The notes under the pieces: model-generated
Databases searched by the model: none
The model's input: the letters and a program-made list of their open reading frames with translations, nothing else
Told to the model about the DNA's origin: nothing
Shown: piece by piece, positions 26,106 through 31,274 of the stretch
How the letters are laid out: every line of letters begins with the position of its first letter
Numbering within the stretch: the first letter of the stretch is position 1
Made by a program: the position numbers and the translations under genes
Assembly: GCF_029872055.1 (NCBI RefSeq)
Contig: NZ_JARXNQ010000001.1
Span: 1 to 64,000, forward strand
DNA length: 64,000 bases
Reading direction: 5' to 3'
DNA from: Sulfurimonas sp. C5
Lineage (GTDB): Bacteria; Campylobacterota; Campylobacteria; Campylobacterales; Sulfurimonadaceae

Positions 26106-26267
26106 ATGAAAAAAGAAGAAGTAAATTTTGCTAAAAACAGACATTTTAATTTGACTATGATTCCAGGAAAGTTTGCAAGAGCAATGAGAACATGCGTGCT
26201 TTGGCAAATTATCAGATTTATTATTATTAATATTAAAATGATTATAGTGGTTGGAAAAAGTCACTAA
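26106..26267 (+). CDS. Small basic protein, co-transcribed with the sqr-like gene
   Basis: A 53-residue reading frame, ATG 26106 to TAA 26265-26267. It has one of the strongest ribosome-binding sites in the window (AAAGGGGAG, about 5 bases upstream). The N-terminal half is polar and basic (KKEEVNFAKNRHF, IPGKFARAMRT); the C-terminal half is a hydrophobic stretch (WQIIRFIIINIKMIIVVG) that could be a membrane helix. I recognise no family. Position 13 bases after the flavoprotein suggests an accessory or anchoring subunit. It could be spurious, but the Shine-Dalgarno and codon pattern argue against that. Confidence 0.6.
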   Translation: MKKEEVNFAKNRHFNLTMIPGKFARAMRTCVLWQIIRFIIINIKMIIVVGKSH

Positions 26268-26274
26268 GTTTCTT

Positions 26275-26295
26275 TATCCGGGTATTTCCCGGATA
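26275..26295 (+). terminator. GC-rich stem-loop after the sqr operon
   Basis: Perfect 8-base arms TATCCGGG and CCCGGATA with a TATTT loop, 8 bases after the stop of the small gene and 15 bases before the next start. No long U tract follows, so it may be an attenuator or an RNA-stabilising hairpin instead of a full terminator. Confidence 0.5.
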
Positions 26296-26310
26296 ATTCG
26301 TTAGGTTGGT

Positions 26311-27123
26311 ATGGTAAAAGAAATAATAAAATATCCTACACCGTTAAGTGTTGAATATGGTATAAACGTACGTGTGTTTAATAAAGAGTTGTTTGCATTG
26401 ATAGATGATCTCAAAGATACTATCAATGAAAATAATTTAGATGCACTGGCTGCTTTTCAAATAGGCAGTTATTTTAATGTCGTTGTTATAAAACAAGATG
26501 ATGGTACTTTTTTAGAACTTATTAATCCTAAAGTAATTTCCCATAGTGGGGAAGTTGTTACTCAAGAAGTAACGGCTTATTATCCAAATATGAATGCCGA
26601 AGTAAAAAGATATGCAGCTATAAGTGTTGTATATCAAGATCGTTTTGGTGAAAAACAAGTTTTAAAAGCAGATGGAAATCTTGCAATTTTAATACAAAGA
26701 AAAATTGACTATACTTTTGGTTCAACGTTTCTACCGAAACTTTCTCAAGAAGAGAGAAAACGTTTTGAAGATAGTTTGGAATATGGAATAGATGTAGGAT
26801 ATTCAAACTATTGTCCTACCTCTTTTTTTAAAGATAAAATTATAAGATTTATCAATATCATTATTGCTTTACTTTTCTTTGTTTTTTTAATATCATTCTT
26901 TATAGAAGATAAGAAAATATTATCCAGTATTTGGGAATATCAACTTTATACATCATATGCAACAACATTTTTTACTTTAGTGTATGTAGTTTATGGACGG
27001 TATGAAGGAACAAAGTATACAAGCTGTACAAGTTGTCAAATAGGTAATATTTTGGGGACAGCATTTCTAGCTCTTGTAAGGTTGTCAATAGTGATGATAC
27101 TCTCATATATCTTCGTTAAATAA
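26311..27123 (+). CDS. Membrane-anchored peptide-deformylase-like protein lacking the metal site
   Basis: 270 residues. Residues 1-155 follow the peptide deformylase fold: IIKYPTPL at the start, LAAFQIG (46-52), LELINPKVI, and a final IDYTFGSTFLPKLS. All catalytic elements are changed: the EGCLS motif reads QEVTAYYP (85-92), so the metal Cys is gone, and HExxH reads QRKIDY (129-134), so both His and the Glu are gone. It cannot be a working deformylase by known chemistry. Residues 178-268 form three hydrophobic helices with a short CTSC motif (239-242). It lies 11 bases before a hybrid kinase gene, hinting at a sensory or regulatory role. Confidence 0.72.
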   Translation: MVKEIIKYPTPLSVEYGINVRVFNKELFALIDDLKDTINENNLDALAAFQIGSYFNVVVIKQDDGTFLELINPKVISHSGEVVTQEVTAYYPNMNAEVKRYAAISVVYQDRFGEKQVLKADGNLAILIQRKIDYTFGSTFLPKLSQEERKRFEDSLEYGIDVGYSNYCPTSFFKDKIIRFINIIIALLFFVFLISFFIEDKKILSSIWEYQLYTSYATTFFTLVYVVYGRYEGTKYTSCTSCQIGNILGTAFLALVRLSIVMILSYIFVK

Positions 27124-27134
27124 GATCATAAAGA

Positions 27135-29426
27135 ATGAGTATGGCAGAAAATATAGCGGCTTTACGTAGCTTTAAAGAGACCTTTTCCAAATCAAAAAAT
27201 AATATATTGCAGCAATGGGTTGAATACGAAACTTCTGCAGCAATTTTAGAGCTTCATGAAATCGATCAAAACTATTTTGTAGAAGCATTTGGAAGTGGCG
27301 TCTTTGACTATTTTATGGGAGTTATATCCGGTGAAGTAGAAATAGGTAATTGTCCCGTTATGCAGGATTTTTTGGCATATTTGAAAAATCGTGAGATCAG
27401 TGCAGATGAACTGTTTGAGCTTTGTAGCCATTTTCGTCGTTCTATGATTGATTTTTCTTACGATGCAAAGATTAACTCCAAAGAGGTTTTTGATGCTATC
27501 TCTTATATATTCGATCAGAACTTCAGAGGTATTTTAAAGTACTATACCGATGCAATTTTTCAGAAGCTGGTCGATGCAAGACAAGAAGCACTACTTGCTT
27601 CACAAGCAAAAGAATATTTTTTATCAAATATGTCGCATGAGATTAGAACACCTCTCAACGCAATTTTAGGATTTGTAAACCTTTTATTAGATGATGAACT
27701 TCCCAAAAAACATAGAAATTATTTAGAGATTATTTTAAATAGTGGGGAAAACTTATTAAGTATTATTAATGATATTTTAGACTTTTCAAAACTTCGCAGC
27801 GGTGAATTCCATATCGAAGCGAAAAATTTCTATTTGCATGATGAAATTTCTCATACGATGGAATTGTTTGTAGCAAGTGCCAAGATTAAAAATATCACTA
27901 TAACATCTTTTATCGATCCGAAAATTCCTGTTGAATTGAATGCAGATGTTTTAAGAATCAAGCAAATACTTTCTAATTTTTTAAGTAATGCTATCAAGTT
28001 TACTCCAAACGGCGGGCATATTCATGTACAAGTTTCTTATGATGCTCCGCTTCTTAAAATCAATGTGAAAGACAGCGGGATAGGCATCTCAAAAGAAGAT
28101 CAGGAAAATATTTTCTTGGCATTTGCACAAGCTCAAGATGCGCAAGAAAGTAGAAGTGACGGCACAGGTCTTGGTCTTTCAATCTCATGTCAGCTTGCAG
28201 AATTGATGCAGGGTAATGTAGGTGTTGAGTCTGAAGTGGGTCAAGGAAGTAATTTTTGGATGGAGATTCCCGTTACTGTCCAGACAAACAAACATCTGTT
28301 TTTTGATGAAGTAGAGCAGCTAAAAAACTATTCAATAGTTGTTCATGCAAAAAATTATACACTCAACTATAAACACAAATCTTTTCTTGATTATACAAAA
28401 GTATTTGATATGGATATCTCTATTGTTAACTCCATAGATATGGATTATGATATCTGTATCTTTTTACATGAAGAGATGAGTTCAGACGAGATTAGAAAAA
28501 TTATTAGTTCCGACAAAAAATATCTTGCAATCCTTTCTCAAGAGTGTGATATTTATGATAACTACATGCATATAAATACACTTACGTTCCCACTTTATTG
28601 TGAGAAGATGAAAGTGAGTTTTGAAGAGTTGTTATATCCACAGGAGTATTTAGAGCATCGTAAAAAAATCTCTAAATTATTCAAGGGAAAGATCTTGGTT
28701 GCTGAAGATAATGAAGCGAATCAAGAGCTTATTAAAATTATCCTTTCAAAATACGGTTTAGATTTTGAAATTGTGAACAATGGAGTTGATGCGGTAGAGC
28801 TGTACAAACACAACAAGTATGATTTAATACTTATGGATGAGCAAATGCCTCAAATGGACGGTACTGAAGCAGTAGAGAAGATCAGAAAATATGAACAGAA
28901 AAACAAACTTAAACATACTCCTATTGCAGCACTTACAGCGAATGTTCTAAAAGGTGCTAAAGAGAAGGGTTTGTCACATGGATATGATGCATTTTTGGGA
29001 AAACCAATCATTTTAAAAGATTTAGAACATGTTTTTGATACTTATTTAGAACCTGATTTTAAGAATATATCCTTACAAAAAGAAGATGAAGATAATCAAA
29101 CACATATTATAGGTTTAGATGCAGAAAAATTGACAAAAGATTTGATGCTAAGTATGGATGAATTAACTATGCTTTTAAACCTTTTTGTCAATAAAATGGA
29201 ACAGGTTTTACCTGTTTTAGAAGAAGCAATTGAAGAAAAAAATTATCAACTTATTGCCAAAAAAGCACATAATATCAAAGGTTCAAGTGGGAATTTCAGA
29301 ATAGAGTTTTTACAAAAAACAGCAAGCGAAATGGAACATATGGCAAAAAATAAAGAAGAAAACTATGATTATTTGGAGAGTCTTAAAAAAATTGAAGAAG
29401 CCGTAGCTTCTATAAAAGTTGTATAA
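27135..29426 (+). CDS. Soluble hybrid histidine kinase with receiver and HPt domains
   Basis: 763 residues with no transmembrane segment. An all-helical N-terminal sensor region (about 10-145; resembling RsbR-type or globin-like folds, not identified) is followed by HisKA (SNMSHEIRTP), HATPase_c (LSNAIKF, DSGIGI, DGTGLGLS), a divergent receiver-like stretch (about 390-510), a true receiver (ILVAEDNEAN, LILMDEQMPQMDG) and an HPt domain with KKAHNIKGSSGNF. It is thus a complete internal phosphorelay. ATG 27135 or 27141 could be the start. Its gene follows the deformylase-like gene and converges on a response regulator gene 5 bases away. Confidence 0.87.
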   Translation: MSMAENIAALRSFKETFSKSKNNILQQWVEYETSAAILELHEIDQNYFVEAFGSGVFDYFMGVISGEVEIGNCPVMQDFLAYLKNREISADELFELCSHFRRSMIDFSYDAKINSKEVFDAISYIFDQNFRGILKYYTDAIFQKLVDARQEALLASQAKEYFLSNMSHEIRTPLNAILGFVNLLLDDELPKKHRNYLEIILNSGENLLSIINDILDFSKLRSGEFHIEAKNFYLHDEISHTMELFVASAKIKNITITSFIDPKIPVELNADVLRIKQILSNFLSNAIKFTPNGGHIHVQVSYDAPLLKINVKDSGIGISKEDQENIFLAFAQAQDAQESRSDGTGLGLSISCQLAELMQGNVGVESEVGQGSNFWMEIPVTVQTNKHLFFDEVEQLKNYSIVVHAKNYTLNYKHKSFLDYTKVFDMDISIVNSIDMDYDICIFLHEEMSSDEIRKIISSDKKYLAILSQECDIYDNYMHINTLTFPLYCEKMKVSFEELLYPQEYLEHRKKISKLFKGKILVAEDNEANQELIKIILSKYGLDFEIVNNGVDAVELYKHNKYDLILMDEQMPQMDGTEAVEKIRKYEQKNKLKHTPIAALTANVLKGAKEKGLSHGYDAFLGKPIILKDLEHVFDTYLEPDFKNISLQKEDEDNQTHIIGLDAEKLTKDLMLSMDELTMLLNLFVNKMEQVLPVLEEAIEEKNYQLIAKKAHNIKGSSGNFRIEFLQKTASEMEHMAKNKEENYDYLESLKKIEEAVASIKVV

Positions 29427-29431
29427 AGCTT

Positions 29432-30184
29432 TTAATCTTCTATATAATAACCTATGCCAGAAGCATTTTTAATAATATCTGTAGCAAGTTTATTTCTAAG
29501 TCTCCATACAAGTGTACGTACGCTGTTTTCTGTTGCACCCTTGTCTTCCCAAACATAGTTTACTGCCTGATCAAATGTTACAACAGAACCCAGCTGTGCT
29601 ACTAAAAGGCGTAAAAAAGCATTCTCTTTTTTTGTAAGTTTTAATTTTTTACCTTGATAGAATGTCTCACAAATACTGATATCTAAATGGTAGTTATCTC
29701 CAAAAGGAACAATAGGTTCATCGGATGAACGCTTTGCATACAGCATCTTCTCTAAATTTACCTTATCAACTTTAAGATTATCTATATCATGTTGTCTTTC
29801 ATTTTCAACCTGGAATTTAAAGAGTGCCATTTGAATAGTTGCATGAAGTGAATTTGGATCAAAAGGTTTTACTATATAACCGTAAGGTTCAGTAACTTTT
29901 GCTTGAGTAATAATATCATCGTCAGTGTAAGATGTAAGATAAATAAACGGAATATTATGGTTTTCTTTGATATATTTTGCAAGCTCTATACCGTCATCAC
30001 TCTCTTGTAGAGAAATATCGATAATAACAACATCAGGGTTGTGAGTAGAGATCTTACTTTTTGCCTGTTCTATGTTATCACATACACCGATAACACTGTA
30101 ACCATGCTTTTGTAAAGATATGTTGAGATTAAGTGAAGTTATTTCATCATCTTCAACGACCAAGATTTTTGCTTTTGGATTCAT
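29432..30184 (-). CDS. Response regulator with winged-helix DNA-binding domain
   Basis: 250 residues. Receiver (about 5-120) with ILVVEDDE, phospho-acceptor in VVIIDISLQ, and KPFDPNS; linker coiled coil; C-terminal OmpR-type winged helix (about 160-249) with LTKKENAFLRLL, ATENSVRTLVWRLRNKL and GIGYYIE. It acts as a transcription factor. The insertion SDDGIE after the active-site strand resembles PdtaR/Spo0F-like receivers more than PhoB. It converges on the hybrid kinase, which is a plausible partner, and diverges from msrBA. Confidence 0.87.
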   Translation of the reverse strand: MNPKAKILVVEDDEITSLNLNISLQKHGYSVIGVCDNIEQAKSKISTHNPDVVIIDISLQESDDGIELAKYIKENHNIPFIYLTSYTDDDIITQAKVTEPYGYIVKPFDPNSLHATIQMALFKFQVENERQHDIDNLKVDKVNLEKMLYAKRSSDEPIVPFGDNYHLDISICETFYQGKKLKLTKKENAFLRLLVAQLGSVVTFDQAVNYVWEDKGATENSVRTLVWRLRNKLATDIIKNASGIGYYIED

Positions 30185-30320
30185 CTTTACACTTCCTATA
30201 TCAAAAAAATAATTACTTTGTGATATTACACAATTACTAAAATTATAATATAACTTTTTTTTATTTACAATACTTAATCTAAATAAGTGTAAAATTTGTT
30301 ACAAAATGACACTAACAAAT

Positions 30321-30326
30321 TATAAT
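30321..30326 (+). promoter_or_regulatory. -10 element of the msrBA promoter
   Basis: Perfect TATAAT 22 bases before the ATG at 30348. It lies downstream of the alternative ATG at 30306, which therefore should not be the start. A TGTTACA heptamer at 30297-30303 falls around the -35 position. Confidence 0.6.
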
Positions 30327-30347
30327 ATATTTATCAAAGGGGCTCAC

Positions 30348-31274
30348 ATGCGCGTTTTTATTGCATTTATATTCATGGCATTTTCAAATTTTGTGATAGC
30401 AAACGAGATAGAAAATTTACCTGCTTTAAAGTTGAATCAATTAACAGAAAAAGAAAAATATGTGATTATTGACAAAGGAACTGAAAGACCTTTTAGCGGA
30501 AAATATTACAATTTTGATGAAAAAGGAATCTTCCTTTGTAAACAGTGCGGTGCACAACTTTTTATATCAAAAGACAAATTTCACAGTGGTTGCGGCTGGC
30601 CTAGTTTTGACGATGCAATTAAAGGAGCTGTGAAAAGGGTAAAAGATGCTGATGGTAAACGAACAGAGATCATTTGTGCAAGATGCGGGGCACATTTGGG
30701 TCATGTTTTTGAAGGGGAAGGATTTACTGCTAAAGACACAAGATATTGTGTTAATTCTATCTCTTTAAATTTTCAAAAAGATTTTGCAAATAATCTTAAA
30801 AAAGCATACTTTGCCGGAGGGTGTTTCTGGGGTGTTGAATATTATCTTGAAAAGCAAAAAGGTGTACTTAGCGTTGTTTCTGGATACATGGGAGGTAAAA
30901 AGCCAAATCCTTCATACAGAGATGTCTCTAGAGGTGATAGCGGCTACTTTGAAACAGTTGAAGTGACTTATGATCCAAAACTTGTTGATTATGAAACGTT
31001 AGCGAAACTGTTCTTTGAGATTCACGATCCGACGCAAAAAAATGGACAAGGACCTGACATAGGGTCTCAGTACCATTCAGCAATTTTTGTTAGTAATATA
31101 CAAGAACGCAACATTATTAAAAAATTGATTAGGGTTTTAAAGTTAAAAGGGTATGATGTCGCAACAGTTATCCGAGACAAAAAAGAGTTTTACAAAGCTG
31201 AAGAGTATCATCAAAATTATTATGATAGAAAAGGGAAAAAGCCTTATTGTCATGGGTATGTAAAAAGATTTTAA
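30348..31274 (+). CDS. msrAB: Exported methionine sulfoxide reductase, MsrB-MsrA fusion
   Basis: 308 residues repairing both epimers of oxidised methionine. A signal peptide (about 1-19, MRVFIAFIF..VIA) sends it to the periplasm. The MsrB domain (about 30-145) has two CxxC zinc pairs (CKQC, CARC) and the catalytic Cys in TRYCVNS. The MsrA domain (about 150-305) has GGCFWG. The order B then A is opposite to the common MsrA-MsrB fusion. The start ATG 30348 has AAAGGGG upstream and the TATAAT at 30321 supports it. The gene diverges from the response regulator and is followed by an S4 gene. Confidence 0.93.
   Translation: MRVFIAFIFMAFSNFVIANEIENLPALKLNQLTEKEKYVIIDKGTERPFSGKYYNFDEKGIFLCKQCGAQLFISKDKFHSGCGWPSFDDAIKGAVKRVKDADGKRTEIICARCGAHLGHVFEGEGFTAKDTRYCVNSISLNFQKDFANNLKKAYFAGGCFWGVEYYLEKQKGVLSVVSGYMGGKKPNPSYRDVSRGDSGYFETVEVTYDPKLVDYETLAKLFFEIHDPTQKNGQGPDIGSQYHSAIFVSNIQERNIIKKLIRVLKLKGYDVATVIRDKKEFYKAEEYHQNYYDRKGKKPYCHGYVKRF

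Follow-up and report, generated by a model that had tools for sequence, protein, structure and literature searches.

A membrane-anchored relative of peptide deformylase with a replaced metal site, encoded beside sulfide:quinone reductase in Campylobacterota

Peptide deformylase (PDF) is an essential, drug-targeted enzyme of which, to our knowledge, hardly any non-catalytic relatives have been reported. The PDFs (PF01327; for example Helicobacter pylori 2ew5 and Escherichia coli 1bs4) have Cys90, His132, His136 and Glu133, all of which are missing from a protein encoded in the window, the 64,000-nucleotide stretch of Sulfurimonas sp. C5 DNA analyzed here. This protein, which we call pseudo-PDF, resembles the PDFs in its fold, in the length of its domain and in Gln50, and has in common with them the structural equivalents of Glu88, Arg102, Gln131 and Asp135 as well as glycines; it differs in that the glycine positions facing the peptide backbone are relaxed and in that it carries, in addition, a three-helix membrane module with three invariant cysteines. 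The pseudo-PDF gene also shares the sulfide:quinone reductase (SQR) loci of Sulfurimonas and other Campylobacterota, where it stands directly behind the genes for SQR and a 53-residue protein (Table 1). Several types of SQR, their roles unclear, are distinguished in reviews on Sulfurimonas, whose relevant passages name no deformylase-like protein and no small protein as a partner (PMC4584964, PMC7952632). Within the open-licence literature, we found no paper on a PDF pseudoenzyme or a deformylase beside a Sulfurimonas SQR, which is weak evidence.

Table 1. Features of the pseudo-PDF locus in the window
Feature	Coordinates	Strand	Remarks
SQR-like flavoprotein, 489 aa	24623..26092	+	Most conserved operon member
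53-aa conserved protein, partner of SQR	26106..26267	+	No Pfam match
RNA hairpin, 9-bp stem, 5-nt loop, no T-run	26274..26296	+	Between 53-aa ORF and pseudo-PDF
Pseudo-PDF membrane protein, 270 aa	26311..27123	+	PDF-fold domain, residues 1-~155, and three predicted C-terminal membrane helices
Gln50 (equivalent of E. coli Gln50)	26458..26460	+	Kept in 100/106
Residues 86-90, E-V-T-A-Y, where PDFs have EGCLS	26566..26580	+	Cys90 to Thr88, Ser92 to Tyr90; Glu86 kept in 106/106
Residues 129-134, Q-R-K-I-D-Y, where PDFs have QHExDH	26695..26712	+	Metal His pair and catalytic Glu replaced by Arg130, Lys131, Tyr134
Cys168, just ahead of TM1	26812..26814	+	Invariant, 106/106
CTSCQIGN motif, residues 239-246, start of TM3	27025..27048	+	Cys239, Ser241, Cys242, Gln243, Asn246 invariant, 106/106
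Soluble hybrid histidine kinase, HisKA-HATPase-REC-Hpt	27135..29426	+	Lineage-specific addition to operon
OmpR-type response regulator	29432..30184	-	Convergent with kinase, conserved beside it

An earlier note on this DNA had described the open reading frame at 26311-27123 (+), which is indeed present and encodes 270 residues, as a repurposed, membrane-anchored deformylase pseudoenzyme. Pfam, AlphaFold2 and Foldseek all assign the PDF fold to it: PF01327 (Pep_deformylase) covers residues 2-149 with E=7e-29; the AlphaFold2 model, for which 78 homologues were used, has a mean pLDDT of 88.9; and the top Foldseek matches of this model in the PDB are PDFs, the first of them the H. pylori enzyme 2ew5 (E=2.5e-15, 35% identity). 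The structure prediction proposed in the note thus agrees with the fold it had claimed, and the three additional C-terminal membrane helices are likewise predicted, as long hydrophobic helices at residues 173-195, 201-235 and 240-268. Pseudo-PDF scores below the cut-off of every NCBIfam PDF model that it matches (72.6 bits versus 103.95 for TIGR00079).

The metal ligands and the catalytic glutamate, all said in the note to be replaced, are so in our alignments, in which Cys90 becomes Thr88, His132 becomes Arg130, His136 becomes Tyr134 and Glu133 becomes Lys131, given the E. coli PDF residue numbers (C90, S92, H132, E133, H136) that we take to apply to the motif positions. While the note had recognized the correct motifs, its register (QEVTAYYP for EGCLS, QRKIDY for HEIDH) had to be shifted slightly, EVTAY corresponding to EGCLS and RKIDY to HEIDH. 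Position by position, we set 105 pseudo-PDFs against 16 true PDFs from Campylobacterota, calling a position fixed if it was conserved in at least 90% of the true PDFs. Of 54 such positions, pseudo-PDFs retain 17, among them Gln50 and the equivalents of Glu88, Arg102, Gln131 and Asp135, relax 32 and switch five. These five (C90T, S92Y, H132R, E133K and H136Y), the only ones re-fixed to a different residue, all belong to the active site; three of them are metal ligands and a fourth is the catalytic glutamate.

Across the 106 members of the family, Cys90, Glu133 and His136 are never kept and a histidine is found at the 132 site in three; lysine (Lys131) occupies the site of the catalytic Glu133 in 97 members, and glutamate in none. 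The GxGLAAxQ motif is not preserved as such, Gln50 being kept in 100 of 106 members and Gly43 and Gly45 being relaxed. These two glycines, as well as Gly89 and Leu91, do not vary among the true Campylobacterota PDFs of the comparison and are relaxed in the pseudo-PDFs; since true PDFs hold the backbone of the substrate through these residues, their relaxation speaks against binding of a formyl peptide. Ninety of the 106 members share the signature Q50 E86 T88 Y90 R130 K131 Y134 unchanged, with drift in Sulfuricurvum-type and other divergent members (MESYHQY, QESYQQF, LESYQYY). Because the switched positions are strongly fixed and the signature is so widely identical, the pocket has been re-specified and has not decayed. 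Together with the predicted PDF-like structure, the conserved substitutions support the pseudoenzyme proposed in the note, and, judged from its sequences, the family is a novel, PDF-derived form of this fold that lacks the features by which a deformylase enzyme is defined.

Flanking sequence sufficient to define the neighbourhood on both sides is available for 90 of the 104 distinct family members. SQR and the 53-aa ORF lie directly upstream of pseudo-PDF in 68 of these 90 loci, the window included, and in the other 22 pseudo-PDF is not beside SQR, so that the link is not strictly positional. In a set of 397 good genomes drawn evenly from the Campylobacterota, the 53-aa protein is encoded by 79 of the 79 genomes with pseudo-PDF and by 33 of the 318 without it (p=5e-57, a value that ignores shared ancestry and therefore overstates the evidence). 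Pseudo-PDF is thus associated with SQR, both by conserved adjacency and by co-occurrence, as an accessory of SQR would be. About 29% of the genomes encoding the 53-aa protein have no pseudo-PDF, however, which indicates that SQR does not need it.

The SQR-like flavoprotein shows a mean column identity of 85% across the group; its best match among solved structures is the Aquifex aeolicus SQR (E=3e-40), which, together with the Acidithiobacillus ferrooxidans SQR, is its closest solved relative. Relatives with 63-64% identity are found in Thiodictyon (Chromatiaceae) and Marivivens (Rhodobacterales), on plasmids of which the SQR/53-aa pair occurs without pseudo-PDF, and a plasmid of Sulfurovum mangrovi has the same gene order as the window. 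The pseudo-PDF copy on the latter (L153:8001-8816, NZ_CP087125.1) bears two adjacent peptide deformylase annotations, apparently reflecting a split frame. Copies of the 53-aa protein directly 3' of SQR were located at 26106-26267 of the window, L155:5507-5665, L156:5420-5578 and L153:7734-7895, and this protein is possibly an overlooked small subunit of SQR. Between its ORF and pseudo-PDF, most homologous loci have a strong hairpin of varying sequence, with a stem of at least eight pairs in 74% of loci versus 5.5% of shuffles. A terminator was considered and rejected; as the hairpin of the window has no T-run and is not called by the terminator scan, it is consistent with an mRNA processing or stabilizing element inside one transcript.

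Conservation is high in part of the membrane module, the mean frequency of the major residue in pseudo-PDFs being 0.84 for residues 225-250, 0.65 for the PDF domain and 0.95 for nine pocket positions. Pseudo-PDFs have on average 3.2 lysine and arginine residues before TM1, and the TM1-TM2 loop is acidic; applying the positive-inside rule to this charge bias, we infer that the PDF domain and the CxxC loop likely lie on the same, cytoplasmic side of the membrane. The membrane modules have no Pfam family in common, and a fold search returned no solved structure with E below 0.001. Nor did the 397 Campylobacterota genomes yield a clear case of the module as a separate protein without PDF: the one strong match in a short frame (G292, C134; 111 aa) probably belongs to a copy that is interrupted by a contig end (C32) and of which it is the second part, and the weak matches are RlmN. 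In Campylobacter, these radical-SAM enzymes (YTVCVSCQIGCQVGCSFC) briefly resemble the pseudo-PDF sequence EGKxYTSCTSCQIGN; for instance, YTVCVSCQIGCQVGC of a Campylobacter-family RlmN (locus L154, from G105) resembles KYTSCTSCQIGN of pseudo-PDF. As the match extends over only 26 residues (E about 3e-4 to 8e-4) and differs in both protein and position, we judge the likeness to be due to chance.

Taken together, these observations lead us to propose, with confidence evenly balanced between acceptance and doubt, that pseudo-PDF is a metal-free pseudoenzyme of PDF descent which, with its three-helix membrane module, assists the SQR unit as an accessory or acts as its sensor; its real job would then probably be to assist or to sense sulfide oxidation. 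With the PDF domain facing the cytoplasm, the old active site (Arg130, Lys131, Tyr134, Thr88, Tyr90 and Gln50) would hold a small anion or anionic group, most simply, to guess from the chemistry of these residues, a reduced-sulfur species or the acidic peptide end of a partner. Binding of this ligand might alter the state of a thiol or metal site formed by C168, C239 and C242 beside SQR, and the altered cysteine site might in turn adjust SQR assembly, activity or sulfur hand-off. In the Sulfurimonadaceae, the soluble hybrid kinase and the response regulator could read out the state of this site. One consideration counts against an SQR accessory: bacterial SQRs often sit on the periplasmic face, in which case the membrane would separate SQR from a PDF domain in the cytoplasm. 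A more elaborate form, which we consider distinctly less likely than not, is a three-protein complex of SQR, the 53-aa subunit and pseudo-PDF. The fold of a translation enzyme would then have been recruited once, in sulfur-oxidizing Campylobacterota, as a membrane sensor or a subunit handling sulfur; a sulfur anion would bind where the metal once sat, and the cysteines of CTSCQIGN would relay sulfur or a redox signal.

Alternatively, the PDF fold might act mainly as a docking scaffold and the membrane module be the working part, with C168, C239 and C242 forming a metal or persulfide site that takes up or passes on SQR-derived sulfane sulfur. The invariance of the three cysteines in all 106 members, the stronger conservation of residues 225-250 than of the PDF domain, and the SQR and DsrE-like neighbours would all fit this proposal. 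It nevertheless strikes us as doubtful, given that the module lacks a structural match and that the pocket positions are fixed more strongly still, suggesting that the PDF domain is probably not a scaffold only. The re-fixing of the active-site positions could also signify a new enzyme in which the Thr, Tyr, Arg, Lys, Tyr and Gln of the pocket catalyze a metal-free reaction. We regard this as improbable, for the searches made turned up no metal-free enzyme on the PDF fold, and the drift of the pocket set in divergent members fits binding better than catalysis.

The earlier note had instead linked pseudo-PDF to the hybrid kinase 11 bases downstream (the pseudo-PDF stop ends at 27123 and the kinase begins at 27135) and had suggested a sensor of formyl peptides or another ligand. 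The N-terminal ~150 residues of this kinase (window 27135-27611) have no Pfam match (best E 0.26) and form an unclassified soluble input domain. In part, the survey of co-occurrence called for in the note bears out the link, as a hybrid kinase lies downstream in 51 of the 68 SQR-linked pseudo-PDF loci, these 51 being of the Sulfurimonas/Sulfuricurvum type; the remaining 17 lack it, so that the partnership is not obligate, and SQR and the 53-aa ORF are the stronger and more constant partners. Moreover, the kinase follows SQR in a genome without pseudo-PDF (L133) and stands beside SQR where pseudo-PDF is several kilobases away (L142, L150). Accordingly, SQR and the 53-aa protein are the core pair, which is commonly joined by pseudo-PDF as a third member and, in particular lineages, by the kinase as a fourth, and the neighbourhood counts led us to reject the kinase as the primary partner. 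That the pocket binds formyl peptides or the N-termini of nascent chains without catalysis, and feeds the kinase, is weakly suggested by the retained equivalents of Gln50, Glu88 and Arg102 and by the position and frequency of the kinase gene. However, the equivalents of Gly43, Gly45, Gly89 and Leu91 are relaxed, the metal-site positions are re-fixed as T/Y/R/K/Y, so that the pocket gains arginine and lysine, and the kinase is absent from Hydrogenimonas, Sulfurovum and other loci; the claim of formyl-peptide binding is therefore one we do not uphold, and a sensor of this kind seems quite improbable.

The 106 near-full-length relatives recovered by genome searches all come from Campylobacterota where the organism is named, mostly from Sulfurimonas, Sulfuricurvum, Sulfurovum, Hydrogenimonas and related groups. 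A pseudo-PDF-type match, with an E-value clearly apart from those of true PDFs, occurs in 79 of the 397 genomes, as counted from the matches listed; as to other phyla, a search of a plasmid collection gave only the Sulfurovum copy over most of the length. A PDF-domain tree unites the pseudo-PDFs in a single clade with 100/100 support and a long stem, which is consistent with a single origin, and the recurrence of the substitutions across the 106 homologues is beyond chance. The window genome (2.06 Mb, 25 contigs) encodes a second, better-scoring PDF with the motifs EGCLS and QHEMDH on another contig, and the true PDFs of its relatives have EGCLS and, in nearly all readable cases, HExDH. Although Pfam scores pseudo-PDF as a PDF and a public record labels it peptide deformylase, it is so improbable that the gene encodes a normal deformylase or is a copy in decay that we reject this reading, the metal ligands having been lost family-wide save for the histidine at one site in three members, the new residues being strongly conserved, and intact PDFs being encoded elsewhere in the window genome and in its relatives.

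A large family in which the fold persists, precisely the metal site is rewired and the protein has moved into the membrane next to SQR would clearly exemplify the conversion of an enzyme into a non-enzyme. The family also points to unrecognized SQR partners in the dominant bacteria of many sulfidic vents and sediments. Labelling its members as peptide deformylase is a source of error both when PDF genes are counted and when PDF inhibitors are studied in these bacteria.

Unlinked pseudo-PDF copies stand beside MerR, AhpD-like, DsrE-like, YceI-like and pirin-like genes, named by sequence inspection, and by the same inspection their MerR/AhpD-like/DsrE-like surroundings would also be a sulfur or redox setting. 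Second copies near genes for a MerR regulator, AhpD-like and DsrE-like proteins, with no SQR adjacent, occur at L142, L150, L152, L146 and others, and at L146 the copy is paired with a 53-aa-type protein in the absence of SQR. In another group (L080, L082, L084-L086, L096, L108 and L111), pseudo-PDF adjoins recR/aroE/trpE-like housekeeping genes, again with no SQR adjacent. Finally, methionine sulfoxide reductase-like genes lie near the unit in the window (30306-31274) and adjoin pseudo-PDF in Hydrogenimonas-type loci (L029, L089, L090 and L104).
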